DNA of 64,000 bases from Cnuibacter physcomitrellae (GTDB lineage: Bacteria; Actinomycetota; Actinomycetes; Actinomycetales; Microbacteriaceae). The stretch lies in assembly GCF_014640535.1 (NCBI RefSeq), contig NZ_BMHD01000001.1, positions 2,172,214 to 2,236,213 of the forward strand. The letters run 5' to 3'. The position numbers were made by a program, and so were the translations under genes. This document shows, piece after piece, positions 13,619-28,368 of this stretch. Within the stretch, counting starts at the first letter, position 1. Every line of letters starts with the position of its first letter. Under the pieces are notes generated by a model. It saw nothing but the letters and a program-made list of their open reading frames with translations, was not told the origin of the DNA and searched no databases.

Positions 13619-14350
13619 TCAGCGGCGCAGCACGTTGAAGCTGAAGATGTCGCCGCGGTGGTAGTCCTGCGCGTAGAGCGTCGGCTCCCCGGCGATCGAG
13701 TAGGCGGTCTCGGTGATGTAGATCCAGGGACCGAACCCGCCGAGGGAGTACTTGGCGGCGGGTCCCTCGGGCATCTCGACGGCGTGGATGGCGGCGGTCG
13801 AGAACGACAGCTCGCGACCCTGGTCCTTGAGGAACGTGGTCAGCGATCCGGTCCAGTCCACGTGCTTGATCGGACCGGGGACCTGGGACCGAGCGATGGT
13901 GCCCACGCTGTAGATGAGGGGCGAGTCGCCCTCCGACCGGAGCCGCTCGATCCGCACGACGCGCTCGTCGTCGGCGAGGCCGAGCGCCTCGCGCTCGTCG
14001 AGGTCGGGGACGTCCTCCTCGACCGACAGCACGAGGGTCTGCGGCGAGTAGCCCAGCTCGCGCAGCATGTCGGTCGCCGACTCGAAGCGCGTGATCGGGC
14101 GGTTCACCTTCGCCGCCGAGAGCGAGGTGAGGTAGCGGCCGAGGCCCGGCCGCACCTCGACGATGCCGTCGTGCTCGAGCAGCTTCAGCGCCTCGCGGGC
14201 CGTGCTGCGCCCCACGCCGAACTGGTCGACGATCTCCGGCTCCGACAGCACGCGGTCGCCCGGCTTCGCCCCGTTGCGCTCGAAGTACTCGACCAGCGCG
14301 TCGCGCACCTGGACGGACATGAGCCTTCGGACGATCGGTGTCTCGATCAC
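13619..14350 (-). CDS. GntR-family regulator (HutC/UTRA type), FrlR-like
   Basis: A 243-residue regulator. Residues about 12-75 form the winged helix (VRDALVEYFERNGAKPGDRVLSEPEIVDQFGVGRSTAREALKLLEHDGIVEVRPGLGRYL). Residues about 95-240 form a UTRA effector domain with VVRIERLR and the final ITETAYSIAGEP segment. GTG 14350 overlaps the kinase stop (GTGA). As the last gene of the sugar-amine operon it should sense a phosphorylated intermediate and control the promoter near 19.55 kb (inference). Confidence 0.82.
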   Translation of the reverse strand: MIETPIVRRLMSVQVRDALVEYFERNGAKPGDRVLSEPEIVDQFGVGRSTAREALKLLEHDGIVEVRPGLGRYLTSLSAAKVNRPITRFESATDMLRELGYSPQTLVLSVEEDVPDLDEREALGLADDERVVRIERLRSEGDSPLIYSVGTIARSQVPGPIKHVDWTGSLTTFLKDQGRELSFSTAAIHAVEMPEGPAAKYSLGGFGPWIYITETAYSIAGEPTLYAQDYHRGDIFSFNVLRR

Positions 14351-15183
14351 GCGCCTGCCCCTTCTCGAACGATCTGCGGGACCTGGTCGAACCCACCCCA
14401 ATGCTGGCAGGTCAGGGCGGCCACGCGCGATCCTTCGATCATGCACGTCTGGACATCGGCTCCCTGCGCGAACCGGTGGACGAACCCCGCAATGTAGCTG
14501 TCGCCGGCTCCGGTGGTGTCGACGACCTCGATGGGCTGGGCCGCCGCCTCCCACCACCGCTCGCCGTCGTGCGCGATGCTGCCGGCGGGCCCGCAGGTGA
14601 CGACCGCGAGGCGAGCGCCTCCGGCGATGGCCTCCCGGGCCAGCCGCTCCGCCTCGGGGCGATCGTCGCCGGCCGAGCAGAAGGCGACGTCGAGGTCGGC
14701 GTATCCGGAGCTGACCGCGCAGTCCTGGCTGACCAGCACCCCGCGCGCTCGCAGCTCGCGGCGGATGCGGTCGGCGAACGGGTTCATGCCGATGTGCACG
14801 AGCCGCCGACGGCCGAGCGCGTCCAGGTCCGCCTCGCTGGGCTGGTAGTCGGCCGAGGTCGCGAAGTCCTCGAAGAAGATCACCCGCTCTCCGTCGTCCT
14901 CGACCCGGATCTTCGACACGGAGGTGATGCCGGGCAGCTCGACCAGGAGCGACGTGTCGACGCCCTCCTCCTCGAGCGTGCGCCGGATGCGCTCGCCGTC
15001 CGCATCCGGACCGACGGCGCCCGCGTAGGCGACGTCGGCGCCCAGGGTGCGGAGCTTGACGGCGACGTTGACCGCGTTGCCGCCCACGAAGCTCGTCTGC
15101 TCGGTGCCGTAGTACTGGTCGACGGTGTTGTCGCCGATGGTGGCCAGCCCCGAGTGCTCCGTCTGCTGGTGGTGCATGCTCAT
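14347..15183 (-). CDS. frlD: PfkB-family sugar kinase, fructoselysine 6-kinase-like
   Basis: A 278-residue ribokinase-fold enzyme. Motifs: GDNTVDQY at the N-terminus, FVGGNAVNVAVKL (substrate glycines), and the catalytic DTTGAGDSYIAGF near residue 235. The short length and the YYGTEQTSFVGGNAVNVA start resemble FrlD, which phosphorylates fructose-amines at C6. Pairing in one operon with the SIS deglycase at 18499-19512 and a sugar ABC importer supports this. Overlaps: four bases with the regulator, and it abuts the permease stop (15184). Confidence 0.78.
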   Translation of the reverse strand: MSMHHQQTEHSGLATIGDNTVDQYYGTEQTSFVGGNAVNVAVKLRTLGADVAYAGAVGPDADGERIRRTLEEEGVDTSLLVELPGITSVSKIRVEDDGERVIFFEDFATSADYQPSEADLDALGRRRLVHIGMNPFADRIRRELRARGVLVSQDCAVSSGYADLDVAFCSAGDDRPEAERLAREAIAGGARLAVVTCGPAGSIAHDGERWWEAAAQPIEVVDTTGAGDSYIAGFVHRFAQGADVQTCMIEGSRVAALTCQHWGGFDQVPQIVREGAGA

Positions 15184-16080
15184 CTACTTTCCGATCCCGT
15201 CCGACAGCCCTCGGATGAAGTATTTCTGACACAGGAAGAACAGGGCGATCATCGGCACGGCGGCGATCGTCATCCCGGCGAACACCGAGGGGAAGTCGGT
15301 CACCGCCCTCGACGACAGCGTCGCGAGTCCGACGGGCAGCGTCTTCAGCGAGTCGCTGCCGATGAAGATCAGCGCGAACAGGTACTCGTTCCAGGCGAAC
15401 AGCACCTGGAGGATGACCGCCGAGGTGATGATGGGCGCCGACATGGGGAGCACGATCCGCCAGAAGATCTGCGAGCTGCGGGCCCCGTCGAGCACGGCCG
15501 CCTCGTCGACCTCGATCGGCAGGTCGATCATGTACGACCGGATGAGGAAGGTCGTGAACGGGATGCGGAACGCCGTGTAGAGGATGATGAGCGCCCAGTA
15601 GGTGTCGTAGATCCCCCATCCCTGCAGCAGCTTGACCAGCGGGATGACCGCCACGGTCGGCGCCAGCATCAGCCCGCCGATGATGATGTAGAGGATCGGC
15701 TTGCTGAACGGGATGGTGACCCTGGTGAGGCCATAGGCGGCCCAGGCGCTCAGGAGGGTCGTCGCGATGACGCTCGCGACGGTGACGATGACGCTGTTGA
15801 GGAAGTACTCCCCCACACCGCCCGCGAACGCCCTCCCGTAGCTGGAGAGGTCGAGCTCGGCCGGCCAGCCGAACGGGCTCGACAGGATCTCGCTGTTCGA
15901 CTTCAGCGAGCTCAACGCCATCCAGAGGATGGGGTAGAGCACGATGATCGCGAGCGCGGCGAGAACGCCGATGAGCAGGAGCCGGCCGACGATGCGGCCG
16001 AACCCGAGGGCGCCGATCGGCTTCGGTCGCCGACGGGTCGGCGTGGCCTCGGTCGCTCCGAAGGCTGTGGTGACGGCCAT
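15184..16080 (-). CDS. Carbohydrate ABC transporter permease (MalG type)
   Basis: A 298-residue inner-membrane protein with six hydrophobic helices, a basic N-terminal tail (RRRPKPIG) and the EAA loop EVDEAAVLDGARSSQIFWRIVLP that docks the ATPase. It forms a pair with the MalF-type permease; the start ATG overlaps that gene's stop by one base (TGATG). No ATPase gene is encoded in the operon, so a shared MsmK/MsiK-type ATPase elsewhere probably powers it, as in many actinobacteria (established for MsiK in Streptomyces; inferred here). Confidence 0.88.
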   Translation of the reverse strand: MAVTTAFGATEATPTRRRPKPIGALGFGRIVGRLLLIGVLAALAIIVLYPILWMALSSLKSNSEILSSPFGWPAELDLSSYGRAFAGGVGEYFLNSVIVTVASVIATTLLSAWAAYGLTRVTIPFSKPILYIIIGGLMLAPTVAVIPLVKLLQGWGIYDTYWALIILYTAFRIPFTTFLIRSYMIDLPIEVDEAAVLDGARSSQIFWRIVLPMSAPIITSAVILQVLFAWNEYLFALIFIGSDSLKTLPVGLATLSSRAVTDFPSVFAGMTIAAVPMIALFFLCQKYFIRGLSDGIGK

Positions 16081-17063
16081 CAGACCCTCCTCCTGTTGGC
16101 GTAGACGACCTGCGCGATGGCGAGGGCGAGCGTGATCACGAACATGACCACGGCGATCGCCGCCGCGTACCCGAAGTCGTTCTTGACGAATCCGCTGCGG
16201 TAGAGCCAGGTGCCGAGCACCTGGGTGGAGTTGTCCGGTCCGCCGCCGGTGGTGACCATCACCTCGTTGAACACCTGGAAGGCCCCGGACAGCGTGACGA
16301 TCATCATCAGGGCGGTCATCTCGCGCACCAGCGGGATGGTGATCGAGAAGATCCGACGGAACGGGCCGATCCCGTCGAGCGCGGCCGCCTCGTAGATCTC
16401 CTGCGGGATGCGCTGGATCGCGACGGCGAACAGCAGCGCCGAGTAGCCGAAGCCCTGCCACTGGCTCATCATGATGATCGCGGTCATGGCCGTCTTCGGG
16501 TCTCCCAGCCAGGCCTGCTGCAGCGAGTCGAGGCCGAGGGCGCCGAGGACGCCGTTCAGCAGGCCGCCGTCCGGCTGGTAGATGAACGTGAACAGCAGCC
16601 CGATCACGGTGAGCGACATCGCCGAGGGGATGAAGTACACCGATCGCAGGACCGCGCGCCACCGGTGGCTGCGCAGGCTCTCGATGATCGCCGCGAGGAC
16701 GAGCGCGAGGAAGACCTGGAACACGATCGAGATCCCGGCGTAGAGCACGTTGTTCCCGAGTGCCCGCCAGAAGATCGGGTCGCCGGCCAGCTTGACGTAG
16801 TTGTCGGCGCCGACGAACGTCTGCTCGCCGGTGAAGATGTTCGACTGCTGGAAGCTGTACCCGAAGTTGAGCACGAGCGGGTAGTAGACGAACAGGAACA
16901 GGACGACGAGACCCGGCAGCACCCAGACGAGCCCGCTCCAGCGGGGACGCCTGCGGCGGATGCGCGGGGAGGCCCCGCCGGTGCGCTCGCGCGCACCGGC
17001 GGTGGAGGAGGCTCGCGTCAGTTCGAGCCGGTTCTCCTGGCCGACGATGACCCCCTCCGACAC
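16080..17063 (-). CDS. Carbohydrate ABC transporter permease (MalF type)
   Basis: A 327-residue permease with a polar, arginine-rich first 42 residues, then six membrane helices starting GLVWVLPGLVVLFLFVYYP. The cytoplasmic EAA loop is EIYEAAALDGIGPFRRIFSITIP. Starts at GTG 17063, three bases after the binding-protein stop. It works with the MalG-type partner and the lipoprotein to import the operon's sugar-amine substrate. Confidence 0.88.
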   Translation of the reverse strand: MSEGVIVGQENRLELTRASSTAGARERTGGASPRIRRRRPRWSGLVWVLPGLVVLFLFVYYPLVLNFGYSFQQSNIFTGEQTFVGADNYVKLAGDPIFWRALGNNVLYAGISIVFQVFLALVLAAIIESLRSHRWRAVLRSVYFIPSAMSLTVIGLLFTFIYQPDGGLLNGVLGALGLDSLQQAWLGDPKTAMTAIIMMSQWQGFGYSALLFAVAIQRIPQEIYEAAALDGIGPFRRIFSITIPLVREMTALMMIVTLSGAFQVFNEVMVTTGGGPDNSTQVLGTWLYRSGFVKNDFGYAAAIAVVMFVITLALAIAQVVYANRRRV

Positions 17064-17066
17064 GGC

Positions 17067-18389
17067 TCAGCCCTTCGCCTGCTCGGAGGCCGCCTTCACG
17101 GCGTCCATCACGTCCTGGGCAGAGCGGTCTCCGGAGATGAGGCCCTGCACCCCCGAGAGGTAGGCGTCGGCCACGTCCGGCACGGTGACGGTGTCGAGCC
17201 AGATCGACAGGCTGTTCGCATCCTGGAGCACGTCGATGCTCTCGCGGAGCTGAGGCGTGGAGTTCTCGTCGGTCAGCGAGTCCTTCACCGGGCTCGGGAT
17301 GCCGAGCTCGGCGGTGAGCGCCGTGGCGTTGGCCTTGTCGGTGACGAACTTCATGAAGTCGACCGCGAGCGGCAGGTTCTTCGCCTTCGGGTTGATGAGG
17401 AAGCCGTCGGGCGCTCCGGTCAGCGCACCGAGGTCGCCCTGGGCGTCGGAGGCGGCGGGCAGCTTGAAGATGCCCCATCCGTCGTTCGCGGCGACCGATC
17501 CCTCGGGCACGGTGGCGCCGAACTCGAGGTTCTCGACGTAGAACATCGCGGCCTGGCCTGCGCCGAACGCGTCGCGCTGCGAGTAGTAGTCGGAGCCGTT
17601 CGCGCCCGATCCGGTGGTCGTGCAGCGGTCGATGATGTCGGAGAACTGCTCGAGCGCCTCCACGTAGCCCGGGTCGTCCCAGGTGGCGGTGTCGGGCTTG
17701 TAGTCGGCCGCGAGCACATCCGCCGGGACGTCGTAGCTGTTCAGCTGCGTCATGAAGTGGATGGCGGGCCAGCCGTCGACGTTGCCGAACGACATCGGCG
17801 TGATGCCGGCCGCGCTGAGGGTGTCGCAGGCCTTGAGGAGCCCGTCGAGGTCGGTCGGCACCTCGACACCGGCCTGCTGGAACAGCTTCTCGTTGTAGAC
17901 CATGAACTTGGCATCGAGTCCGAACGGGATGCCGTAGGTCCGGCCGTCCTTGGTCAGGGCGCCGATCGCGCTGGGCGCCATGGTCTGGCCCCACTCGGTG
18001 TCGGGTCCGATCACGTCGGTGAGATCGAGCGCGACTCCGTTGTCGTAGAACTGCTCGGCGTAGTTGCCCGGCCAGGTGAAGTACACGTCCGGGAGGCTCT
18101 GCGACGCGGTGAGCGTCTTGATCTTGTCCTTGTAGCCCTGGTCCGACTCCTGCTGGAGCTCGACGGTCACGCCGGGGTGCTCGGCCTCGTACGCGGACTT
18201 CATCTCCTGGAAGAAGCTCTCGTAGTTGCCGGCGTAGCGGGTGATGACGCTGACGGAGCCGCTGTAGTCGACGTTCGACAGGTCGACGTCGGCGGCGGCG
18301 GGAGAGCCGTTGCCGCCGCCGCTGCAGCCGGCCAGGGCCAGCATGGCGATGACGCCGCCCGCTGCGAGCGCGGTAGTCCTTTTCCTCAC
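17067..18389 (-). CDS. Extracellular sugar-binding lipoprotein of an ABC importer
   Basis: A 440-residue family 1 solute-binding protein. Signal peptide MRKRTTALAAGG, hydrophobic core, lipobox LALAGC with Cys22 as lipidation site, then a glycine-rich linker. The mature domain has the periplasmic-binding fold with several exposed tryptophans and acidic residues (YFTWPGNYAEQFYD, GNVDGWPAIHF), which suits a sugar-amine ligand. GTG 18389 is used as start; GAGAGGAAC precedes it. It lies after a strong hairpin that follows the deglycase gene. Confidence 0.88.
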   Translation of the reverse strand: MRKRTTALAAGGVIAMLALAGCSGGGNGSPAAADVDLSNVDYSGSVSVITRYAGNYESFFQEMKSAYEAEHPGVTVELQQESDQGYKDKIKTLTASQSLPDVYFTWPGNYAEQFYDNGVALDLTDVIGPDTEWGQTMAPSAIGALTKDGRTYGIPFGLDAKFMVYNEKLFQQAGVEVPTDLDGLLKACDTLSAAGITPMSFGNVDGWPAIHFMTQLNSYDVPADVLAADYKPDTATWDDPGYVEALEQFSDIIDRCTTTGSGANGSDYYSQRDAFGAGQAAMFYVENLEFGATVPEGSVAANDGWGIFKLPAASDAQGDLGALTGAPDGFLINPKAKNLPLAVDFMKFVTDKANATALTAELGIPSPVKDSLTDENSTPQLRESIDVLQDANSLSIWLDTVTVPDVADAYLSGVQGLISGDRSAQDVMDAVKAASEQAKG

Positions 18390-18458
18390 GTCTTCGTTCC
18401 TCTCTGGATGATGGTGCGGTGGAAGGTGGTGCGGGTCGGTGCTCGGGTGCTGACGGAG

Positions 18459-18491
18459 GCGGCCGGCTCGTGTGGTGGTCGAGCCGGCCGC
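18459..18491. terminator. Intercistronic hairpin between deglycase and binding-protein genes
   Basis: A perfect 12-base stem, GCGGCCGGCTCG with CGAGCCGGCCGC, around a nine-base loop, seven bases after the deglycase stop. No U-tract is present. In this position it more likely stabilises or processes the mRNA, or partly terminates, so that the first gene is expressed at a different level from the transporter genes (inference). Confidence 0.65.
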
Positions 18492-18498
18492 GGCCCGA

Positions 18499-19512
18499 CT
18501 AGTAGACGAGCTTCTTGTAGTAGCGACGGGTGGTGAGCGGGTGGTCGCGCAGCACCTCGAGGTGGGCGCTGAGCCGCTCGAAGACGGTGGCGAGCAGGAC
18601 CGGCGAGATCAGGCTGCGGGTGGCCTGCGAGATGCCGGGCAGCTCGAAGTCCTTGGTGTCGAGGATGCGCACCTTCTCGGTGAAGCGGGGGGCGAACTCG
18701 ATGACCCGGTCGACCAGGCCGCGCGACTCGTCCTCGCCGTTCAGGATGATGATGCTGACACCGTCCTCGAGCAGCTCCAGGGCGCCGTGGAAGAAGTCGG
18801 ACGCGTGGACCGGGCGGGTGCGGATCCACTGCATCTCCTCGAGGATGCACATGCCGTAGTAGTGCGCCTCGGGCCAGGTCGAGCCGGCGCCGGTGATGAG
18901 GTGGTAGTCCTCGTCCTTGATCTCCTCGGCGAGCGCTGCGGCCCGGTCCTCGAAGGAGGCCTTGACGTCGACGAGCAGGGCGGGGAGCTGCTTCAGCTCG
19001 GCCACGGTCTCGTCGTAGGCGTCGTACTCGCCGCGGGCGTTCATCAGGGCGAGCGCTACGAGGAGCGTCTCGAGGTAGAACATCTCGGAGGAGGTGTCGT
19101 CCTCGGCGAAGGTGGTGAAGTTGTGGTCGGCCATCTCCGCCAGCGGGGTGTCGGCGTGACCGGTGAAGGTAATGATCGTCGCGCCGGCCTTCTTGGCGTA
19201 CTCGAGGGCCGCGATCGCCTCCTTCGTCGTGCCCGACAGCGACGGGGTGACGACGATCGACCTCTCACCGAGACGGGGGTTGCCGCGCTCGACGAGCTCG
19301 GCGCCCATCTCGTAGTACACGGGGAAGAGCGACTTGGCCTGGAGCAGCTGGAACGCGGGCTGGGTGAGGAACATCACTCCGCCGGCACCGAGGAAGAAGA
19401 GGTTCTCCGCTCCGCCGTTCACCAGGTCGGTCACGACCTCCTTCAGTCGGGGCTCGACTGCGAGAGCGTCCGACTGGATCCTGACGAATCTGTCGACATC
19501 GAAGTTCAGCAT
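18499..19512 (-). CDS. frlB: SIS-domain fructosamine-6-phosphate deglycase-like protein
   Basis: A 337-residue protein with two SIS sugar-phosphate domains: the first around LFFLGAGGVMFLTQPAF and VVTPSLSGTTKEAI, the second around YHLITGAGSTWPEAHYYGM and RPVHASDFFHGALELL. The order and length match FrlB, which hydrolyses fructoselysine 6-phosphate to glucose 6-phosphate and the amine. It is the first gene of the leftward operon. ATG 19512 is chosen because the family begins with this LNFDVDRFV segment; upstream in-frame codons run through the operator region. Confidence 0.8.
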   Translation of the reverse strand: MLNFDVDRFVRIQSDALAVEPRLKEVVTDLVNGGAENLFFLGAGGVMFLTQPAFQLLQAKSLFPVYYEMGAELVERGNPRLGERSIVVTPSLSGTTKEAIAALEYAKKAGATIITFTGHADTPLAEMADHNFTTFAEDDTSSEMFYLETLLVALALMNARGEYDAYDETVAELKQLPALLVDVKASFEDRAAALAEEIKDEDYHLITGAGSTWPEAHYYGMCILEEMQWIRTRPVHASDFFHGALELLEDGVSIIILNGEDESRGLVDRVIEFAPRFTEKVRILDTKDFELPGISQATRSLISPVLLATVFERLSAHLEVLRDHPLTTRRYYKKLVY

Positions 19513-19545
19513 GGGGTTCTTTCGTTCGTGGTTCGTGTCCGAGGT

Positions 19546-19613
19546 TGTCTGACATCTGCTTGGACCCTTCAGACGTCGTGACAAGAATGCAGACACGCGA
19601 CAGCGCTGTCAAG
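19546..19613 (-). promoter_or_regulatory. Promoter and probable GntR operators of the sugar-amine operon
   Basis: Reading leftward, TTGACA (19613-19608) is a consensus -35 box, followed at 17 bases by CATTCT as a weak -10. Overlapping the -35 is the perfect palindrome GACAGCGCTGTC (19599-19610). Further downstream lie TGTCTGACA (19546-19554) and an inverted pair GTCTGA (19547-19552) / TCAGAC (19569-19574). GTCTxGAC-like sites are typical of GntR/HutC regulators, so the regulator at 13619-14350 is the expected ligand. Confidence 0.55.
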
Positions 19614-19681: not shown

Positions 19682-21238
19682 TCAGGAGAGGGAGAGGAGG
19701 GCCCAGAGCTCGGCGCGGGCGGGGAAGGACTCGAGGTCGAGGTCGAGGCGCGCGGCGAGGCGCTCGACGCGGGTGCGCAGGCTGTGCCGGTGCATCCCGG
19801 CGGCCTCGGCGGCCGCCTCCCAGCGGCAGCCGTGCTCGAACCACAGCGCGGCGAGGCGCACCGACTCCTCGCCCTCCTCGGTCGACCGCACCTCGGCGAG
19901 CCGCAGTCGCGCGACCGCGGGCAGCCCGCTGTCGGCGAGCACGTCGAGGAGCCGGCCGGCGCTGGTGTCGGCGAAGCCGACGATCGCGGTCTCCCCGCTG
20001 CGGTCTGCTGCGGAGGTCGCCGTCGCGAGCGCGGCTCGCGCCTCCTGCACCGCCACGTCGAAGCGGTCGATCGGATGCGGCGCCGACAGTCCCGCCACCG
20101 CATCCTCCGCCGCTCGGCGCAGCCACTGCTCACCGTCCGGGGAGGCGACGGCGACGAGCTCCCCGTCGAGGATCGCCGCGAGGCGAGTGGGGGTGGCGGT
20201 GCGCGCCGTGCGCTGCAGGCGCCGGCGCACCTCCTCGGCCGACGCGGCCGAAGCGGCCGAAGCGGCGGGGCCTGCGCTGACGAGCACGACCACGGACGAC
20301 GACGGATCGACGGCTCCGATGTCGACCGCGCCCGCCCGGGCGGCCTCCGAGAGCAGGGACGCCGCGAGCGCCGCCTCTCCTCGCGCGAGCAGCCGCACGG
20401 CGTGCGCGCCCAGGGCGCCGAGCGCCGCACTGTCGGCCGCATCACGCTCGCGCCCCACCTCGACCAGCGAGGTCCCCGTCATCATCACCGCGCGCCCGGG
20501 CGCATCGAGGGGGGCGCCGAGCACGAGGGCCACCGCGCCGAGCGGCCGGTCGCCGCGGCCGAGGGTCTGCACCACGATCTCCCGCCCGCCGACGGCCTGC
20601 GACGCACCCGCACGCCGGCCGCGGCCGAGCAGCGTTCGCACGTCGGCCTGCGCCGCATCCACGACCCGATCGGCGATGCGGCCGGCCGGATGCTGCTCCA
20701 CGAACTCGCCGTCGGCGTCGTAGAGCAGCACGACGCCCTCGAGCTGGCGGGCGGTCTCCCGCATCGCTGCCGAGACGCCTCCGCCCGACACCGCGGCGAG
20801 CGAGATCGCCTGCTGAGCGGAGAGCGCCCACTCGTCGCGCGCCGCGGCCTCCCGCGCGATCTCGCGCGCGGCCCACGTGATGATCGCCACGAACGGGACG
20901 TCGTAGGGCACCTCCACGAGCGCCATCCCCTGCGTGCGGCACGCCTCGAGGAGCCCGGGCGGCGTCCCGGTCGTGATCACCTCGGTGCCGAACCCGATGC
21001 CGACGACACCCGACGCGGCGAGGCGCGCGACGTAGTCGTCGTAGTCGCCCTGGCCCGAGACGGCCTGGAACTGCAGACCCGTCGTGAGCACGAACTGGTC
21101 CGGCAGCAGGAAGGGGCTGGGGTCCGCCAGGTCCGAGCTCGACACCCAGCTCAGCGGATCGTCGAGCCGGTCGGATGCGGTGAGCAGCACCACCCGGAAG
21201 GCGGGCTCCGAGAGCATCCGGCGGAGGGTGGGCTGCAC
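19682..21238 (-). CDS. PucR-family transcriptional regulator, GabR-like
   Basis: A 518-residue regulator. The N-terminal PucR domain (about 8-130) includes WVSSSDLADPSPFLLPDQFVLTTG. A GAF/GGDEF-like middle follows, and the C-terminal PucR helix-turn-helix (about 455-518) is CRWEAAAEAAGMHRHSLRTRVERL. In Corynebacterium glutamicum a PucR-type protein, GabR, activates the gabTDP genes; here it is divergent from gabT, which argues for the same role. GTG 21238 is preceded six bases upstream by TAGCAT (complement of 21245-21250), so its mRNA may be leaderless. Confidence 0.85.
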   Translation of the reverse strand: MQPTLRRMLSEPAFRVVLLTASDRLDDPLSWVSSSDLADPSPFLLPDQFVLTTGLQFQAVSGQGDYDDYVARLAASGVVGIGFGTEVITTGTPPGLLEACRTQGMALVEVPYDVPFVAIITWAAREIAREAAARDEWALSAQQAISLAAVSGGGVSAAMRETARQLEGVVLLYDADGEFVEQHPAGRIADRVVDAAQADVRTLLGRGRRAGASQAVGGREIVVQTLGRGDRPLGAVALVLGAPLDAPGRAVMMTGTSLVEVGRERDAADSAALGALGAHAVRLLARGEAALAASLLSEAARAGAVDIGAVDPSSSVVVLVSAGPAASAASAASAEEVRRRLQRTARTATPTRLAAILDGELVAVASPDGEQWLRRAAEDAVAGLSAPHPIDRFDVAVQEARAALATATSAADRSGETAIVGFADTSAGRLLDVLADSGLPAVARLRLAEVRSTEEGEESVRLAALWFEHGCRWEAAAEAAGMHRHSLRTRVERLAARLDLDLESFPARAELWALLSLS

Positions 21239-21251
21239 CCTCCGATGCTAG

Positions 21252-21294
21252 TGCCGAAACGGCATCTCCGCGGTCTGCGCGTGCCATCGCGGCA
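21252..21294. promoter_or_regulatory. Two TGCC-N5-GGCA palindromes between pucR and gabT
   Basis: TGCCGAAACGGCA (21252-21264) and TGCCATCGCGGCA (21282-21294) share GTGCC-N5-GGCA and are exactly 30 bases apart, three helical turns, so a dimer of dimers could bind one face of the DNA. The first touches the -10 box of the pucR gene (21245-21250), which would give autoregulation. The pair lies about 105 bases before gabT, a good place for an activator. Assignment to the PucR protein is inferred. Confidence 0.6.
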
Positions 21295-21398
21295 GAGACG
21301 CCGTGACCCTGACGGACCTACCGTGGCTGGAACACCGCGCAGCGCGACCCGCCCGCGCGGACCACCCCGCGACAGCGCCAGCAGACAAGGACGACCGC

Positions 21399-22793
21399 AT
21401 GACCTTCGCACCCGTTCTCGACCAGGGCCCCGGCACCATCCCCGCCGGCAGCGCCCCCGTCGGCGGCCCGGACCTCCCCCAGGAGCGCCGGCTCGTCACC
21501 GAGATCCCCGGACCGCTCTCCCGCGAGATGCTCGCCCGCAAGGCGGCCGCCGTGCCGAACGGCGTCGGCGTGACCCTCCCCATCGCCGTCGTCGCGGCCG
21601 GCGGCGGGGTCGTCGTCGACGTCGACGGCAACTCCCTCATCGACCTGGGCTCGGGCATCGCCGTCACCGGAGTGGGCAACGCCGCCCCCGAGGTGGTCGC
21701 CGCCGTCACCGAGCAGGTCGCCCGCTTCACGCACACCTGCTTCACCATCACCGCCTACGACGGGTACATCCGCGTCGCCGAGGCGCTCAACCGGCTCACC
21801 CCGGGCGACCACGAGAAGCGCACCGCGCTGTTCAACTCCGGCGCCGAGGCCGTCGAGAACGCGGTGAAGATCGCCCGTGCCTACACCCGCAAGCAGGCCG
21901 TGGTCGTGTTCGATCACGCCTACCACGGCCGCACCAACCTCACGATGGCGATGACCGCGAAGTCGATGCCCTACAAGAGCGGATTCGGGCCGTTCGCCTC
22001 CGAGGTCTACCGTGTCCCGCTCTCCTACCCCTTCCGCGACGGCGGCCTCTCCGGAGCGGAGGCGGCGGCGGCGGCGATCTCGCAGATCGAGAAGCAGGTC
22101 GGCGCGAGCAACCTCGCGGCCGTCGTGATCGAGCCCATCCAGGGCGAGGGCGGCTTCATCGAGCCCGCGCTCGGATTCCTGCCCGCCCTGGCCGCCTGGG
22201 CGAAGGACAACGGCGTGGTGTTCGTCGCCGACGAGATCCAGACCGGGTTCAGCCGCACCGGGCACCTCTTCGCCAGCGAGCACGAGGGCCTCGTCCCCGA
22301 CCTCATCACCACCGCCAAGGGCATCGCCGGAGGGCTCCCGCTGTCGGCGGTGACCGGGCGCGCCGAGATCATGGATGCCGCCCACGCCGGTGGGCTGGGC
22401 GGCACCTACGGCGGCAACCCCGTCGCCTGCGCTGCGGCGCTGGCCTCGATCGACCTGTTCGAGAACGGCGGGCTCACGGAGCGCGCCCGCGAGATCGACG
22501 TGGTGCTCCGCGGTGCGCTCGACGCGCTCCGCGCGGTCGACGACCGCGTCGGCGACGTGCGCGGACGCGGCGCGATGATGGCGATCGAGCTCGTCGATCC
22601 CGCCACGGGCGCCCCGGATGCGGCGCTCACCGCGAGGATCGCCGCCTTCGCCCACGCGAACGGCGTCGTGCTCCTCACCTGCGGCACGTACGGCAACGTC
22701 ATCCGCTTCCTCCCGCCGCTGACCATCTCCGACGACCTCCTCCGCGAGGGCGTGCGCGTGGTGGGCGAGGCCCTGGCGGCGAACCCGCTATGA
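21399..22793 (+). CDS. gabT: 4-Aminobutyrate--2-oxoglutarate transaminase
   Basis: A 464-residue class III aminotransferase converting GABA plus 2-oxoglutarate to succinate semialdehyde plus glutamate. Motifs: LIDLGSGIAVTGVGN, NSGAEAVENAVKIARAYT, AYHGRTNLTMAMT, EPIQGEGGFI, FVADEIQTGFSRTG and the PLP lysine Lys307 in TTAKGIAGGLPLS. ATG 21399 has AAGGA seven bases upstream. First gene of the rightward operon, coupled by ATGA to the dehydrogenase. Confidence 0.93.
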   Translation: MTFAPVLDQGPGTIPAGSAPVGGPDLPQERRLVTEIPGPLSREMLARKAAAVPNGVGVTLPIAVVAAGGGVVVDVDGNSLIDLGSGIAVTGVGNAAPEVVAAVTEQVARFTHTCFTITAYDGYIRVAEALNRLTPGDHEKRTALFNSGAEAVENAVKIARAYTRKQAVVVFDHAYHGRTNLTMAMTAKSMPYKSGFGPFASEVYRVPLSYPFRDGGLSGAEAAAAAISQIEKQVGASNLAAVVIEPIQGEGGFIEPALGFLPALAAWAKDNGVVFVADEIQTGFSRTGHLFASEHEGLVPDLITTAKGIAGGLPLSAVTGRAEIMDAAHAGGLGGTYGGNPVACAAALASIDLFENGGLTERAREIDVVLRGALDALRAVDDRVGDVRGRGAMMAIELVDPATGAPDAALTARIAAFAHANGVVLLTCGTYGNVIRFLPPLTISDDLLREGVRVVGEALAANPL

Positions 22794-24091
22794 CCGACAC
22801 CGAGGTGCGGCCGACGACGTCCGCGCTCCCCACGACCACGCTCCCCTCCCCGTCGAGCGTGCTCGACGACGCCCGGCACCAGCTGGCCGAGGCCATCTGC
22901 ATCCTGGGCTACGACGAGGGCCTGCACTCCGTGCTCGCCACGCCCCGCCGCGAGATGACGGTCGCGGTGCCGCTGCGGCACGACGACGGCCGGCACGAGG
23001 TGTTCCTCGGTCACCGCGTGCAGCACAGCCTCTCCCGCGGCCCCGCCAAGGGCGGCATCCGCTACAGCCCCCACGTCTCGCTCGACGAGGTCCGGGCGCT
23101 CGCCATGTGGATGACGTGGAAGTGCGCCCTGCTCGACGTGCCCTACGGCGGCGCGAAGGGCGGCGTCGCCCTCGACCGCAGCGCGCTCAGCCTCCCGGAG
23201 CTCGAGCGGGTGACCCGCCGGTTCACGAGCGAGATCCTGCCGATCATCGGTCCGGAGCGCGACATCCCCGCGCCCGACATCGGCACCGACGAGCGGGTCA
23301 TGGCCTGGATGATGGACACCTACTCCGTCGCCTCCGGCTACACCGTCCCCGGCGTGGTCACCGGCAAGCCGCTGAACCTCGGCGGCTCGCGCGGACGCGC
23401 GTCCGCGACCTCGAGGGGTGTCGTGCACGTCGCGCTGCGGGCGCTGGAGCACGCCGGCATCACCGGGTCCGAGCGCACCGCGGCCGTGCAGGGCTTCGGC
23501 AAGGTGGGCCGCGACGCCGCGCGGTTCCTGGCCGAGGCGGGCATCCGCGTGGTCGCCGTCAGCGACCAGTACGGCGCGGTCTACGCCGACGGCGGACTCG
23601 ACATCGGCGAGCTCGCCCTCCATGTCGACCGCACCGGCGGCATCCCCGGGTTCATCGGCGGAGACGTGCTCCCCCCGGCCGACCTGCTGGAGCTCGACGT
23701 CGACCTCCTGGTGCCGGCCGCCGTCGAGAGCGTCCTCACCGCCGAGAACGCGCCGCGCGTGCGCGCCCGCGTGGTGGTCGAGGGCGCCAACGGACCGACC
23801 ACGACCGAGGCCGACCGCATCCTCGCTGAGAGGGGCGTGCTGGTCGTGCCCGACATCCTTGCGAACGCAGGGGGCGTCGTGGTGTCGTATTTCGAGTGGG
23901 TGCAGGGCAACCAGTCGTACTGGTGGCACGAGCACGACGTCGAGGTCAGGCTCGCCGAGAGGATGAGCCGGGCCTGGGACGACGTGACGGGCACAGCTCG
24001 GACTCGCGGGCTCTCGCTCCGTTCTGCAGCGATGTGCCTGGCCGTCGAGAGAGTCGCAGACGCCCACCAACTGAGAGGACTGTACCCGTGA
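22790..24091 (+). CDS. Glu/Leu/Phe/Val dehydrogenase
   Basis: A 433-residue NAD(P)-linked amino acid dehydrogenase. The dimerisation domain contains KGGIRYSPHVSLDEVRALAMWMTWK and the catalytic lysine Lys123 in PYGGAKGGV. The Rossmann domain begins AAVQGFGKVGRDAARFL near residue 230, and the end carries NAGGVVVSYFEWVQG. Placed between gabT and the semialdehyde dehydrogenase with overlapping ends on both sides, it most simply recycles the glutamate made by GabT back to 2-oxoglutarate with release of ammonium (inference). Confidence 0.9.
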   Translation: MTDTEVRPTTSALPTTTLPSPSSVLDDARHQLAEAICILGYDEGLHSVLATPRREMTVAVPLRHDDGRHEVFLGHRVQHSLSRGPAKGGIRYSPHVSLDEVRALAMWMTWKCALLDVPYGGAKGGVALDRSALSLPELERVTRRFTSEILPIIGPERDIPAPDIGTDERVMAWMMDTYSVASGYTVPGVVTGKPLNLGGSRGRASATSRGVVHVALRALEHAGITGSERTAAVQGFGKVGRDAARFLAEAGIRVVAVSDQYGAVYADGGLDIGELALHVDRTGGIPGFIGGDVLPPADLLELDVDLLVPAAVESVLTAENAPRVRARVVVEGANGPTTTEADRILAERGVLVVPDILANAGGVVVSYFEWVQGNQSYWWHEHDVEVRLAERMSRAWDDVTGTARTRGLSLRSAAMCLAVERVADAHQLRGLYP

Positions 24092-25575
24092 CCATCACCA
24101 CTCCGACCGCATCCACCGAGGCCGCGCTGCTCGAGAAGATCCCGACGGGACTGTTCATCGGCGGGAAGTGGGTCGACGCCTCCGACGGCGGCACCTTCGA
24201 CGTGAACGACCCGGCGACGGGCAAGACGCTGCTGACCATCGCCTCCGCCACCCCGGAGGACGGCAAGGCCGCGCTCGACGCCGCCGTCGCCGCTCAGGAG
24301 TCGTGGGCGGCGACGCCCGCGCGGACCCGCGGCGAGATCCTCCGTCGCGCGTGGGAGCTGCTGCAGGAGCGCAAGGACGAGGTCGCGCTGCTCATGACGC
24401 TCGAGATGGGCAAGCCCCTCGCCGAGGCGTACGGCGAGGTGACCTACGGCGGCGAGTTCCTGCGCTGGTTCAGCGAGGAGGCCGTCCGGATCTCGGGCCG
24501 CTACGGCTCGAACCCCGAGGGCACCGGGCGGATGATCGTCACCCACCACCCGGTGGGACCGTGCTTCCTCATCACGCCCTGGAACTTCCCGCTCGCGATG
24601 GCGACCCGCAAGATCGCGCCCGCGCTGGCCGCCGGGTGCACGGTCGTCGTCAAGCCGGCTGCGCTCACGCCGCTGACCACCCTGCTGTTCGTGCGCATCC
24701 TCGAGGATGCGGGTGTCCCCGCGGGCGTGGTGAACGTCGTGCAGACCACCGCGTCGCGTGCCGTGAGCGCCCCGATCATCGCCGACCACCGCCTCCGCAA
24801 GCTGTCGTTCACCGGGTCGACCGAGGTCGGCGTGGCGCTGCTCAAGCAGGCGGCCGACAACGTGCTGCGCACCTCGATGGAGCTCGGCGGGAACGCGCCG
24901 TTCATCGTCTTCGACGACGCCGACCTCGACAAGGCGGTCGACGGCGCAATGGCGGCGAAGTTCCGCAACTCGGGCGAGGCCTGCACCGCGGCGAACCGCT
25001 TCATCGTGCACGAGTCGGTGGCGGAGGAGTTCGCCGCCCGGGTCGCCGAGCGCGTGTCCGGCTTCAAGGTCGGTCGCGGCACCGAGGAGGGCGTGAACGT
25101 CGGGCCGCTCATCGACCAGGCCGCCGTCGACAAGGCACGCTCCCTCGTCGAGGATGCGGTCGCTCGCGGCGCCTCGGTCCGCACCGGTGGCGAGGCGATC
25201 GAGGGCGACGGCACGTTCTTCCAGCCCACCGTCGTCTCCGGCGTCGCGCCGGGCAGCGAGATCCTCAGCACGGAGATCTTCGGACCGGTGCTCTCGATCA
25301 TCCCGTTCACCGACGAGGACGACGCCGTGCGCCTGGCCAACAGCACCGAGTTCGGGCTGGCCGCCTACGTCTTCACGAAGGACCTGGCCCGCGGTCAGCG
25401 GATGATCGACCGGCTCGAGACGGGCATGCTCGGCCTCAACGCCGGCGTCATCTCGAACGCGGCCGCCCCGTTCGGAGGCATCAAGCAGTCGGGCCTCGGC
25501 CGCGAGGGCGGCGTCGAGGGCATCCACGAGTACCTCACCACGAAGTACACGATGACCCCGAACCCCTCGCTGTGA
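24088..25575 (+). CDS. gabD: Succinate-semialdehyde dehydrogenase (GabD-type aldehyde dehydrogenase)
   Basis: A 495-residue NAD(P)-dependent aldehyde dehydrogenase. Catalytic Cys299 in SGEACTAANRF, general base Glu265 in MELGGNAPF, and cofactor motifs TPWNFPLAMATRKI and SFTGSTEVG. The LMTLEMGKPLAEAYGE segment and full length are typical of GabD, which oxidises succinate semialdehyde to succinate. GTG 24088 overlaps the previous stop. Together with GabT it completes GABA breakdown to the TCA cycle. Confidence 0.88.
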   Translation: MTITTPTASTEAALLEKIPTGLFIGGKWVDASDGGTFDVNDPATGKTLLTIASATPEDGKAALDAAVAAQESWAATPARTRGEILRRAWELLQERKDEVALLMTLEMGKPLAEAYGEVTYGGEFLRWFSEEAVRISGRYGSNPEGTGRMIVTHHPVGPCFLITPWNFPLAMATRKIAPALAAGCTVVVKPAALTPLTTLLFVRILEDAGVPAGVVNVVQTTASRAVSAPIIADHRLRKLSFTGSTEVGVALLKQAADNVLRTSMELGGNAPFIVFDDADLDKAVDGAMAAKFRNSGEACTAANRFIVHESVAEEFAARVAERVSGFKVGRGTEEGVNVGPLIDQAAVDKARSLVEDAVARGASVRTGGEAIEGDGTFFQPTVVSGVAPGSEILSTEIFGPVLSIIPFTDEDDAVRLANSTEFGLAAYVFTKDLARGQRMIDRLETGMLGLNAGVISNAAAPFGGIKQSGLGREGGVEGIHEYLTTKYTMTPNPSL

Positions 25576-25610: not shown

Positions 25611-26978
25611 ATGGAACACATCGAGAGAGACGTCGTCATCGTCGGCGCCGGGGCCACGGGGCTGAACGCCGCGTATCGGCTGCAGCAGGCGGGCAAGAGC
25701 GTGATCGTGCTCGAGGCCCGCGACCGCGTCGGCGGGCGGCTGTGGACGAACGCGATCGACGGTCAGATGTACGAGATCGGCGGTCAGTGGGTCTCGCCCG
25801 ACCAGACCGAGCTGATCGGCACGCTCGACGAGCTCGGGCTGGAGACCTACTCGCGCTTCCGCGAGGGCGAGAGCGTCTACGTCACCCCCTCGGGCGAGGC
25901 GAAGCGCTTCACCGGCGACATCTTCCCCGCCGGCGAGCACACCGAGGCCGAGATCACGCGGCTCATCGGGATCCTCGACGAGCTCGTCGCGCAGACCGAC
26001 CCTGCGGCGCCGTGGGAGCATCCGCGGGCCAAGGAGTTCGACCACATCTCGTTCCGCGCCTGGCTCGAGAGCGAGAGCGACGACTCGGAGGCCGTGGAGA
26101 ACATCTCCCTGTTCATCGCGGACGCGATGCTCACGAAGCCCTCTCACGCGTTCTCCCTGCTCCAGGCCCTCCTCATGGCCGCGAGCGCCGGCAGCTTCAG
26201 CCACCTGGTGGACGCCGACTTCATCCTCGACAAGCGCGTGGTCGGCGGACTGCAGTCGGTGCCCCTGGTCCTCGCCGAACGGCTGGGGCGGGATGTCGTC
26301 CGGCTCGAGCAGCCGGTGCGGTCGATCTCGTGGGGGTCGCTCGGCGCCGTGGTGCGCAGCGACGAGCTCGAGGTCGCCGCGGATCACGTGATCGTCGCCG
26401 TCCCGCCGAACCTCTACGACCGCATCGACTACCTCCCGGCGCTGCCGCGGCTGCGCCAGCAGCAGTTCCAACACCAGTCGCTGGGGCTCGTCATCAAGGT
26501 GCACGCGACCTACGAGACCCCGTTCTGGCGGTCCGCGGGGCTCTCGGGCACGGCGTTCAGCCCCTACCAGCTGGTGCACGAGGCGTACGACAACACCAAC
26601 CACGGCGAGAACCGCGGCACCCTCGTCGGGTTCGTGTCGGACGAGAAGGCGGACGCGGTGTTCCGGCTCTCCGCCTCCGAGCGGAAGCAGCGCATCCTGG
26701 AGTCGCTGGCGACCTACTACGGCCCAGAGGCGCTGACCCCGGCCGTGTACTACGAGAGCGACTGGGCGGCCGAGGAGTGGACGCGCGGCGCCTACGCCAC
26801 GAGCTTCGACCTCGGCGGGCTCACCCGGTACGGCGCGATGCAGCTGGAGCCGATCGGCCCGATCCGGTTCGGATCAAGCGACCTCGCCGCGGAGGGCTAC
26901 CAGCACGTCGACGGCGCGCTCCGGGTGGGCAAGCGCCTGGCCCACGAGATCCTCGCCCTCGACGGCGCGGACCAGTAG
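25611..26978 (+). CDS. puo: Flavin amine oxidase, putrescine oxidase-like
   Basis: A 455-residue monoamine-oxidase-fold protein. FAD site VVIVGAGATGLNAAYRLQQAG at about 8-28, EARDRVGGRLWTNAIDGQMYEIGGQWVSPDQTEL, and the C-terminal FAD-closing segment EGYQHVDGALRVGKRLA. It resembles putrescine oxidases of Micrococcus and Rhodococcus, which yield 4-aminobutanal, ammonia and peroxide. ATG 25611 is preferred because homologous sequence begins there and AGGAG lies upstream. GTG 25572, overlapping the previous stop, would add 13 residues without family support. Confidence 0.82.
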   Translation: MEHIERDVVIVGAGATGLNAAYRLQQAGKSVIVLEARDRVGGRLWTNAIDGQMYEIGGQWVSPDQTELIGTLDELGLETYSRFREGESVYVTPSGEAKRFTGDIFPAGEHTEAEITRLIGILDELVAQTDPAAPWEHPRAKEFDHISFRAWLESESDDSEAVENISLFIADAMLTKPSHAFSLLQALLMAASAGSFSHLVDADFILDKRVVGGLQSVPLVLAERLGRDVVRLEQPVRSISWGSLGAVVRSDELEVAADHVIVAVPPNLYDRIDYLPALPRLRQQQFQHQSLGLVIKVHATYETPFWRSAGLSGTAFSPYQLVHEAYDNTNHGENRGTLVGFVSDEKADAVFRLSASERKQRILESLATYYGPEALTPAVYYESDWAAEEWTRGAYATSFDLGGLTRYGAMQLEPIGPIRFGSSDLAAEGYQHVDGALRVGKRLAHEILALDGADQ

Positions 26979-26994
26979 ACGAGAGGATCGATCC

Positions 26995-28368
26995 ATGAGC
27001 GACTACGCAGTCATCGACCCCGCCACCGGCGAGACGGTCAAGGAGTACGAGACCATCACCGACGCCGAGCTCGACGCGGCGATCGCGTCGACGCACGCGG
27101 CCTACTCCGACTGGAGCCGTGCGACGACCGCCGAGCAGCGGGCTGCGCTCATCAAGCGCGTCGCCGAGCTGCACCTCGAGCAGAAGGACGAGCTGGCCGC
27201 CATCGCCGTGCGCGAGATGGGCAAGCCGCTCGCCCAGGCGGTCGGCGAGGTGGAGTTCGCGGCGGCGATCTTCGAGTACTACGCCGCCAACGGGCCCGGG
27301 TTCCTCGTCGACGAGCCGATCGAGGTCTCGTCCGGCGAAGCCGTGATCCGCAAGGTGGGCGTGGGGGTGCTGCTCGGCATCATGCCGTGGAACTTCCCGT
27401 ACTACCAGGTGGCCCGCTTCGCCGGCCCGAACGTGGTGTCGGGCAACACGATCCTGCTGAAGCACGCCCCTCAGTGCCCGGAGTCGGCGGCGGCGATCGA
27501 GGCGATCTTCGCCCGGGCCGCAGACGAGGTGGGCGCGCCCTCGGGGGTGTACCGCAACATCCTCGCCACCAACGAGCAGATCGAGCGCGTCATCGCCGAC
27601 CCCCGGGTGCAGGGCGTCTCGGTGACCGGGTCCGAGCGGGCCGGATCCGCGGTGGCCGCCATCGCCGGGAAGAACCTGAAGAAGGTCGTGCTCGAGCTGG
27701 GCGGATCCGACCCGTTCATCCTCCTCTCGACCGACGACCTGGACGCGGCCGTGCAGGATGCGGTCAACGCGCGACTCGACAACAACGGTCAGTCGTGCAA
27801 CGCGGCGAAGCGCTTCGTGATCGCCGACTCGCTGTACGAGCGGTTCCGCGACGAGTTCGTCTCGCGGTTCACGGCCATCCAGCCCGGCGACCCCACCTCG
27901 GACGACACCGAGCTCGGGCCGCTGTCGTCGTCTGCTGCGACATCGCGACTCGCCTCGCAGCTGGCTCGGGCCGAGGAGCAGGGCGCGACCGTCCTGGCCC
28001 GCGGCGAGGTGCGCGGGAACTTCTTCCCGCCGGCCGTGCTCGCCGACGTCACACCCGAGATGGACGCCTACCACGAGGAGTTCTTCGGCCCCGTCGCGAT
28101 GCTGTTCCGCGCCTCCGACGAGGACGACGCCGTGCGCATCGCGAACGACACGCCGTTCGGACTCGGCTCGTACGTCTACACCACCGACGAGGCCCAGGCG
28201 GCGCGCGTCGCCGACCGCATCGACGCCGGCATGGTGTGGATCAACCTCGTGCTCGGCGACGCCGCGGAGCTGCCGTTCGGCGGCGCCAAGCGCTCGGGCT
28301 TCGGCCGCGAGCTCGGCCGCTTCGCCCTCGACGAGTTCGTCAACCGCAAGCTCATCCGCACCGCGTAG
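26995..28368 (+). CDS. Aldehyde dehydrogenase, aminobutyraldehyde or succinate semialdehyde type
   Basis: A 457-residue aldehyde dehydrogenase with Cys268 in [12 protein letters not shown], Glu234 in LELGGSDPF and [13 protein letters not shown]. The shorter N-terminus and [11 protein letters not shown] segment place it in the GabD1/SSADH-like group. Because a full GabD is encoded just upstream and an amine oxidase lies between them, the second enzyme is likely needed for 4-aminobutanal to GABA, but it could be a second succinate-semialdehyde dehydrogenase. GAGAGGAT precedes ATG 26995. Confidence 0.85.

Follow-up and report, generated by a model that had tools for sequence, protein, structure and literature searches.

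Closest described systems

The closest described counterpart of the locus studied here is GabR of C. glutamicum, a PucR-type regulator that is encoded divergently from gabT and is required for the expression of gabTDP on GABA; its binding sites, two 21-bp inverted repeats, fall between positions -87 and -23 relative to the gabT start, and binding is strongest when both are intact (PMC7652997). According to that report, the purified protein is an octamer, GABA leaves its binding unaltered, gabTDP is further influenced by carbon (GlxR) and nitrogen, and the PucR regulators studied so far are mostly activators (PMC7652997). AdeR and PutR of Bacillus subtilis are likewise PucR-family activators with an inverted-repeat site, of 24 and 17 bp, but differ in that a single repeat is stated for each, in having a GGDEF-like domain and in serving other pathways, at least as they are summarized there (PMC7652997). 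In the same account GabR of Bacillus subtilis also activates gabTD, but it carries an aminotransferase domain and belongs to another family, so that only the name is common (PMC7652997).

In the window, by which we mean the whole 64-kb stretch of Cnuibacter physcomitrellae DNA that was analysed, pucR and gabT are divergent as well, and the regulator carries PucR and HTH_30 domains. The features considered are as follows, on the coordinates of the window.

19682..21238, minus strand: pucR (GabR-like), 518 aa, with matches to PF07905 (N-terminal PucR, 2.4e-20) and PF13556 (C-terminal HTH_30, 2.8e-11)
21245..21250, minus strand: predicted pucR -10, TAGCAT, 6 nt before the GTG
21252..21264, no strand assigned: predicted operator site 1, TGCCGAAACGGCA, with palindromic arms TGCCG/CGGCA
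21282..21294, no strand assigned: predicted operator site 2, TGCCATCGCGGCA, centred about -43 from the predicted gabT transcription start, which was placed from the -10
21319..21324, plus strand: predicted gabT -10, TACCGT, 23 nt after the site-2 15-mer (21281-21295)
21399..22793, plus strand: gabT, 4-aminobutyrate-2-oxoglutarate transaminase, starting at ATG 21399
22793..24091, plus strand: glutamate dehydrogenase-like (ELFV) gene, NCBIfam matches under their cut-offs
24088..25575, plus strand: gabD-like succinate-semialdehyde dehydrogenase, TIGR01780 under its cut-off, start codon provisional
25611..26978, plus strand: flavin amine oxidase (Pfam Amino_oxidase), start codon provisional
26995..28368, plus strand: second aldehyde dehydrogenase, by family search

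The PucR-type regulator encoded divergently from gabT is predicted to use the two sites as a tandem activator operator, a reading to which we assign a probability of about 85%. A preliminary description of this DNA had already proposed a tandem operator for a GabR-like PucR, and the proposal is supported by the conservation of the pair, its fixed distance from the gabT -10, its association with pucR and the C. glutamicum case. As with the C. glutamicum operator, the regulator is divergent, two inverted repeats stand immediately upstream of the gabT -35 position, and both repeats fit within a 55-bp fragment; the C. glutamicum protein has no GGDEF-like domain, and none was matched here by Pfam (PMC7652997). 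The operons differ, gabTDP with its permease in C. glutamicum and gabT-gdh-gabD-amine oxidase-ALDH here, and whereas binding and the requirement for the regulator were shown in that organism, both are predicted from sequence at this locus, the likeness considered being one of layout (PMC7652997). The PucR protein of the window resembles GabR in its layout, and its function is probably similar as well.

The search for a GGDEF-like domain in the 518-aa protein gave no Pfam match at 0.001, an absent match being weak evidence, and the regulator had no NCBIfam match at 1e-20 and no PDB match at 0.01. For gabT, ATG 21399 was preferred over GTG 21303, since with the latter the -10 would fall inside the gene. 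The glutamate dehydrogenase-like gene is probably in the same operon as gabT, and the flavin amine oxidase at 25611..26978 is possibly a putrescine oxidase, putrescine being the substrate that we infer.

A unique pair of common sites

Inspection of the sequence confirmed the two GTGCC-N5-GGCA sites of the preliminary description, which lie in a pucR-gabT gap of 160 bp with their starts exactly 30 bp apart and a G preceding each. The spacing had been equated with three helical turns; the 30 bp stands, and at 10.5 bp per turn amounts to about 2.9 turns, with 29-32 bp in relatives. Site 1, which had been placed at the -10 box of pucR, does not cover TAGCAT (21245-21250) and directly adjoins it.

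A lone TGCC-N5-GGCA site carries no signal. The 64-kb window holds three matches against 1.29 expected, a number reached in 14 of 100 shuffles, and the 74 single sites in the 4.35-Mb genome are at chance level, compared to 360 occurrences of a reversed control word. The third match in the window, at 22968, lies within the glutamate dehydrogenase-like gene and was set aside as an operator for that reason. The exact 30-bp pair, on the other hand, is found at only one place in the genome with no mismatch (none listed with one mismatch, three with two, and 52 places with up to three), and from the single-site rate about five such pairs are expected per 100 million gaps of 160 bp. The genome-wide count that had been proposed as a check is uninformative for the single site and favourable for the pair.

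Conservation of the pair within Microbacteriaceae

Of the 398 family genomes searched, 186 gave relatives of pucR, and the named relatives sampled were the best 80 of 518. The exact pair at 30 bp occurs nine times in the 398 genomes, six of them beside pucR: five in pucR-gabT gaps and one in a pucR-gabD gap, the other three having no pucR match within the 3-kb locus. Two of these pucR-gabT gaps (L023, L024) have a pucR match that covers the C-terminal part only, and a full relative is present in both genomes. As the reversed control word gives 22 pairs, its half-words being commoner in the family genomes, the argument rests on the position of these pairs and not on their number.

From 137 loci, 126 rows with a divergent aminotransferase gene beside pucR were obtained, and 104 gaps remained once identical and nearly identical regions had been taken out; in three of the loci (L014, L018 and L019) the partner is only about 32% identical to gabT. 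An exact single site is present in 27 of the 126 rows and an exact pair in seven, with L001/L025 standing for a single place and L017/L021 for a second one. The exact word is therefore poorly conserved in homologous gaps, the outcome that the preliminary description had said would speak against its proposal, and the idea was rescued by motif discovery with free spacing. Self-comparison of the 104 nonredundant gaps gave its highest peaks at offsets of 30 and 31 (z 9.4 and 8.5), with codon-period peaks also present. Unseeded expectation-maximization (EM) for a pair of sites, with a uniform start and the spacing free from 16 to 60, placed 0.47 of the weight on 31 and 0.41 on 30, with the consensus TGTAC-N5-GG, and reached a log-likelihood of 1087 versus 104-114 for five mononucleotide shuffles that were started from the TGCC seed and showed no common spacing. 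A two-class EM found the pair in 103 of the 104 gaps, at a spacing of 29-31 in 101; the exceptions are L008 (spacing 23), L009 (spacing 16) and L019 (no pair). The last of these (G032:C11) has a PucR gene facing a class-III aminotransferase 32% identical to gabT with no recognisable pair; a pair is present in its neighbours on the tree, L014 and L018.

Half-site classes and the PucR tree

The two classes share their spacing and differ in their half-sites, given here by their main letters, several positions being loose: class A reads TGTAC-R-N3-Y-GGNGA and class B reads TGCC-R-N3-Y-GGCA. Class A, the larger among the gaps, comprises the Microbacterium, Leifsonia, Agromyces and Cryobacterium loci in the set, and class B comprises the window together with Frigoribacterium, Herbiconiux, Subtercola, Mycetocola, Salinibacterium, Schumannella, Frondihabitans and Plantibacter loci. 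TGCC-N5-GGCA, which had been offered as a motif for this regulator class in Microbacteriaceae, does not hold as such, as most gaps carry TGTAC-N5-GGNGA instead.

On a quick tree of PucR proteins with several long branches, built from the 102 of 104 that exceed 400 residues, the half-site class changes twice, compared to 27.4 times with shuffled labels, so the half-site has changed rarely and by clade. As the class tracks PucR clades, the conservation of the pair partly reflects descent. The recognition-helix residues HRH are near invariant in the proteins of both classes. Residue 473 was considered as an explanation of the two classes: 30 of the 32 class B rows have W there, and class A has mainly H, F, A or Y. 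Columns outside the DNA-binding domain separate the classes equally well, so residue 473 may be a clade signal only and was not retained.

Outside the family

Other families of the class have divergent pucR-gabT gaps as well. A sample of 30 loci, most of them from one family, gave 29 with a gabT match (L174 was dropped) and 27 nonredundant gaps. The best pair is spaced by 31 or 32 in 21 of these 27 gaps and by another distance in six, and in 18 of the 21 a TANNNT lies 22-25 nt beyond, two of the remaining three regions ending too early. Seeded discovery on this sample returned T.tCCAca.tGgCca at 31-32, and a nearly flat start settled on a spacing of 23 with a poorer fit (217 vs 286).

These data make it likely that GabR/PucR promoters of actinomycetes keep a common layout, an inverted repeat followed by a second one at 29-32 bp and a -10 at 22-25 nt, while the half-sites TGCC..GGCA, TGTAC..GGNGA and TATCC..GTCCA are exchanged; the regulator would then serve as a rigid ruler, with the geometry of the oligomer under stronger selection than the recognition sequence. 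We found no description of clade-specific half-sites combined with a family-wide rule of spacing and promoter distance in the literature searched on PucR/GabR regulators, for the most part abstracts. What may be new is this rule and these half-sites, the operator type being already known from C. glutamicum. Few operators of this regulator family have been characterised, and here the recognition sequence has drifted between clades and the spacing has stayed; the one published case becomes a predictive rule, in which likely PucR/GabR-controlled promoters of actinomycetes are marked by two sites spaced by about 30-32 bp and followed, about 23 nt further on, by a TANNNT.

Position of the pair relative to the promoters

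Distances to promoters were measured on the 101 of 104 loci with a spacing of 29-31 (68 class A and 33 class B). In 97 of these the site-2 15-mer is followed at 22-24 nt by a TANNNT, which is missing there in four; elsewhere within the 60 positions tested it stands only twice. A conserved -10 on the pucR side was also sought in the 101 loci. Only class B gave any sign of one, with a TANNNT close to site 1 in 19 of 33 loci, against none of 68 in class A. The preliminary description had placed the sites at the -10 of pucR and upstream of gabT; the conserved promoter relation is that with gabT and not that with the pucR -10. In the window, the position of TAGCAT, 6 nt before the GTG, points to a possibly leaderless pucR transcript, whose -10 would have site 1 directly on its upstream side.

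Proposed mode of action

A single PucR oligomer would sit on one face of the DNA and occupy both inverted repeats, which are separated by about three turns. Site 2, with its centre near -43, would lie immediately upstream of the -35 position, which reads AGACGC and holds no TTGACA-like box, and this arrangement suggests that the bound regulator would help RNA polymerase to start. The unit activated would be the putative gabT-gdh-gabD-amine oxidase-ALDH operon, presumably in the presence of GABA or a related metabolite. Binding may tune pucR too, as site 1 stands directly upstream of its -10-like box.

Association of the pair with pucR

In order to rank the pair without reference to itself, the two-class EM was trained on 101 regions that excluded the window and its two nearest relatives, and the pair then came first in the 64 kb, scoring 16.0 and 13.4 on the two strands compared to 7.8 for the next best place. 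An earlier matrix, whose site positions came from a run including the window, gave the same outcome (15.7 and 13.0 vs 7.8); with that matrix and each site taken alone on the plus strand, site 1 ranks 1st and site 2 ranks 22nd.

A second sample consisted of 20 gabT upstream regions of about 660 bases each, chosen as likely to have no adjacent pucR; a pucR start was nevertheless present within about 660 bases in nine of them and in none of the other 11. All nine pucR-adjacent regions score at least 12.5, two of them (L195, L198) being training loci, one (L194) sharing 29% of its words with a training locus and six sharing at most 2%. Among the 11 without adjacent pucR, nine score at most 2.4, a weak control given that seven of these are gabT paralogues of 57-65% identity; the only fair negatives are L192 and L199, low-scoring close gabT relatives from genomes with no pucR match. 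The two regions of the 11 that do have the pair, L193 (20.0) and L200 (8.7), come from genomes with pucR elsewhere, about 18 kb and about 3 kb away. In the genome of L193 (G164), class A pairs stand at both gabT and the distant pucR (L129, 18.6), a possible two-locus regulon. A pair is found in front of seven of eight pucR genes that are not beside gabT, L059 being the one without. Four of these seven are from one genus, and a TANNNT 23 nt beyond is present only in L020 and L027.

These comparisons bear on two other ways of reading the pair. It could be bound by another regulator, of nitrogen or carbon metabolism, acting at gabT promoters, which we regard as improbable. The words of the pair seem unlike the GlxR or GlnR boxes, and we counted this against such a regulator. 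The retention of the pair at pucR genes without a gabT partner (7/8, including the second PucR of this genome) and its absence from L192 and L199 argue for a PucR protein as the binder, although the presence-absence comparison is confounded by the paralogues and gabTDP of C. glutamicum is indeed under GlxR and nitrogen influence (PMC7652997).

Still less probable is that the pair serves only the autoregulation of pucR, with gabT controlled in some other way. Such a role would suit the abutment of site 1 on the -10-like box of pucR, as well as the five pucR genes away from gabT that have a pair and no TANNNT 23 nt beyond; it is at odds with a -10 distance that is fixed on the gabT side and, on the pucR side, has a counterpart in only part of class B and none of class A, with the gabT gene that keeps its own pair 18 kb from pucR (L193), and with the mostly activating role of the PucR regulators described so far (PMC7652997). 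A chance pair of GC-rich palindromes, to which the chance-level frequency of single sites and the more frequent pairing of the reversed control word would lend themselves, is very unlikely, as the comparative data are strongly against it: the exact pair is unique in the genome, the spacing is kept in 101 of 104 gaps, and models that never saw the window rank the pair first. Activation of gabT by PucR from a tandem operator is thus the reading that we retain.

Related loci

The second PucR of the genome (L020; G000:C1:901507-901553; L191:4508-4554) is 34% identical to that of the window and faces an aldehyde dehydrogenase gene, which on a reading of its sequence may be of the methylmalonate-semialdehyde type; its pair has a spacing of 32, with TAGCAT 23 nt beyond. 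The single pucR-gabD gap with an exact pair (L027; G177:C20:75494-75536) has pucR facing a gabD-like gene and TGCC-N5-GGCA sites at 30 bp. A contig labelled as an Acidobacteria MAG (L051; JABBOD010000001.1) carries a Microbacteriaceae-like pucR-gabT locus with 35% and 77% identity to the window proteins, and is possibly misbinned. In the window itself, the minus strand beside pucR (13619-19596) holds an apparent sugar-uptake cluster. It includes a SIS-domain protein matched by domain search; the other members, a substrate-binding protein, a kinase of the PfkB type, a GntR regulator and two permeases, are suggested by a reading of the open reading frames alone.
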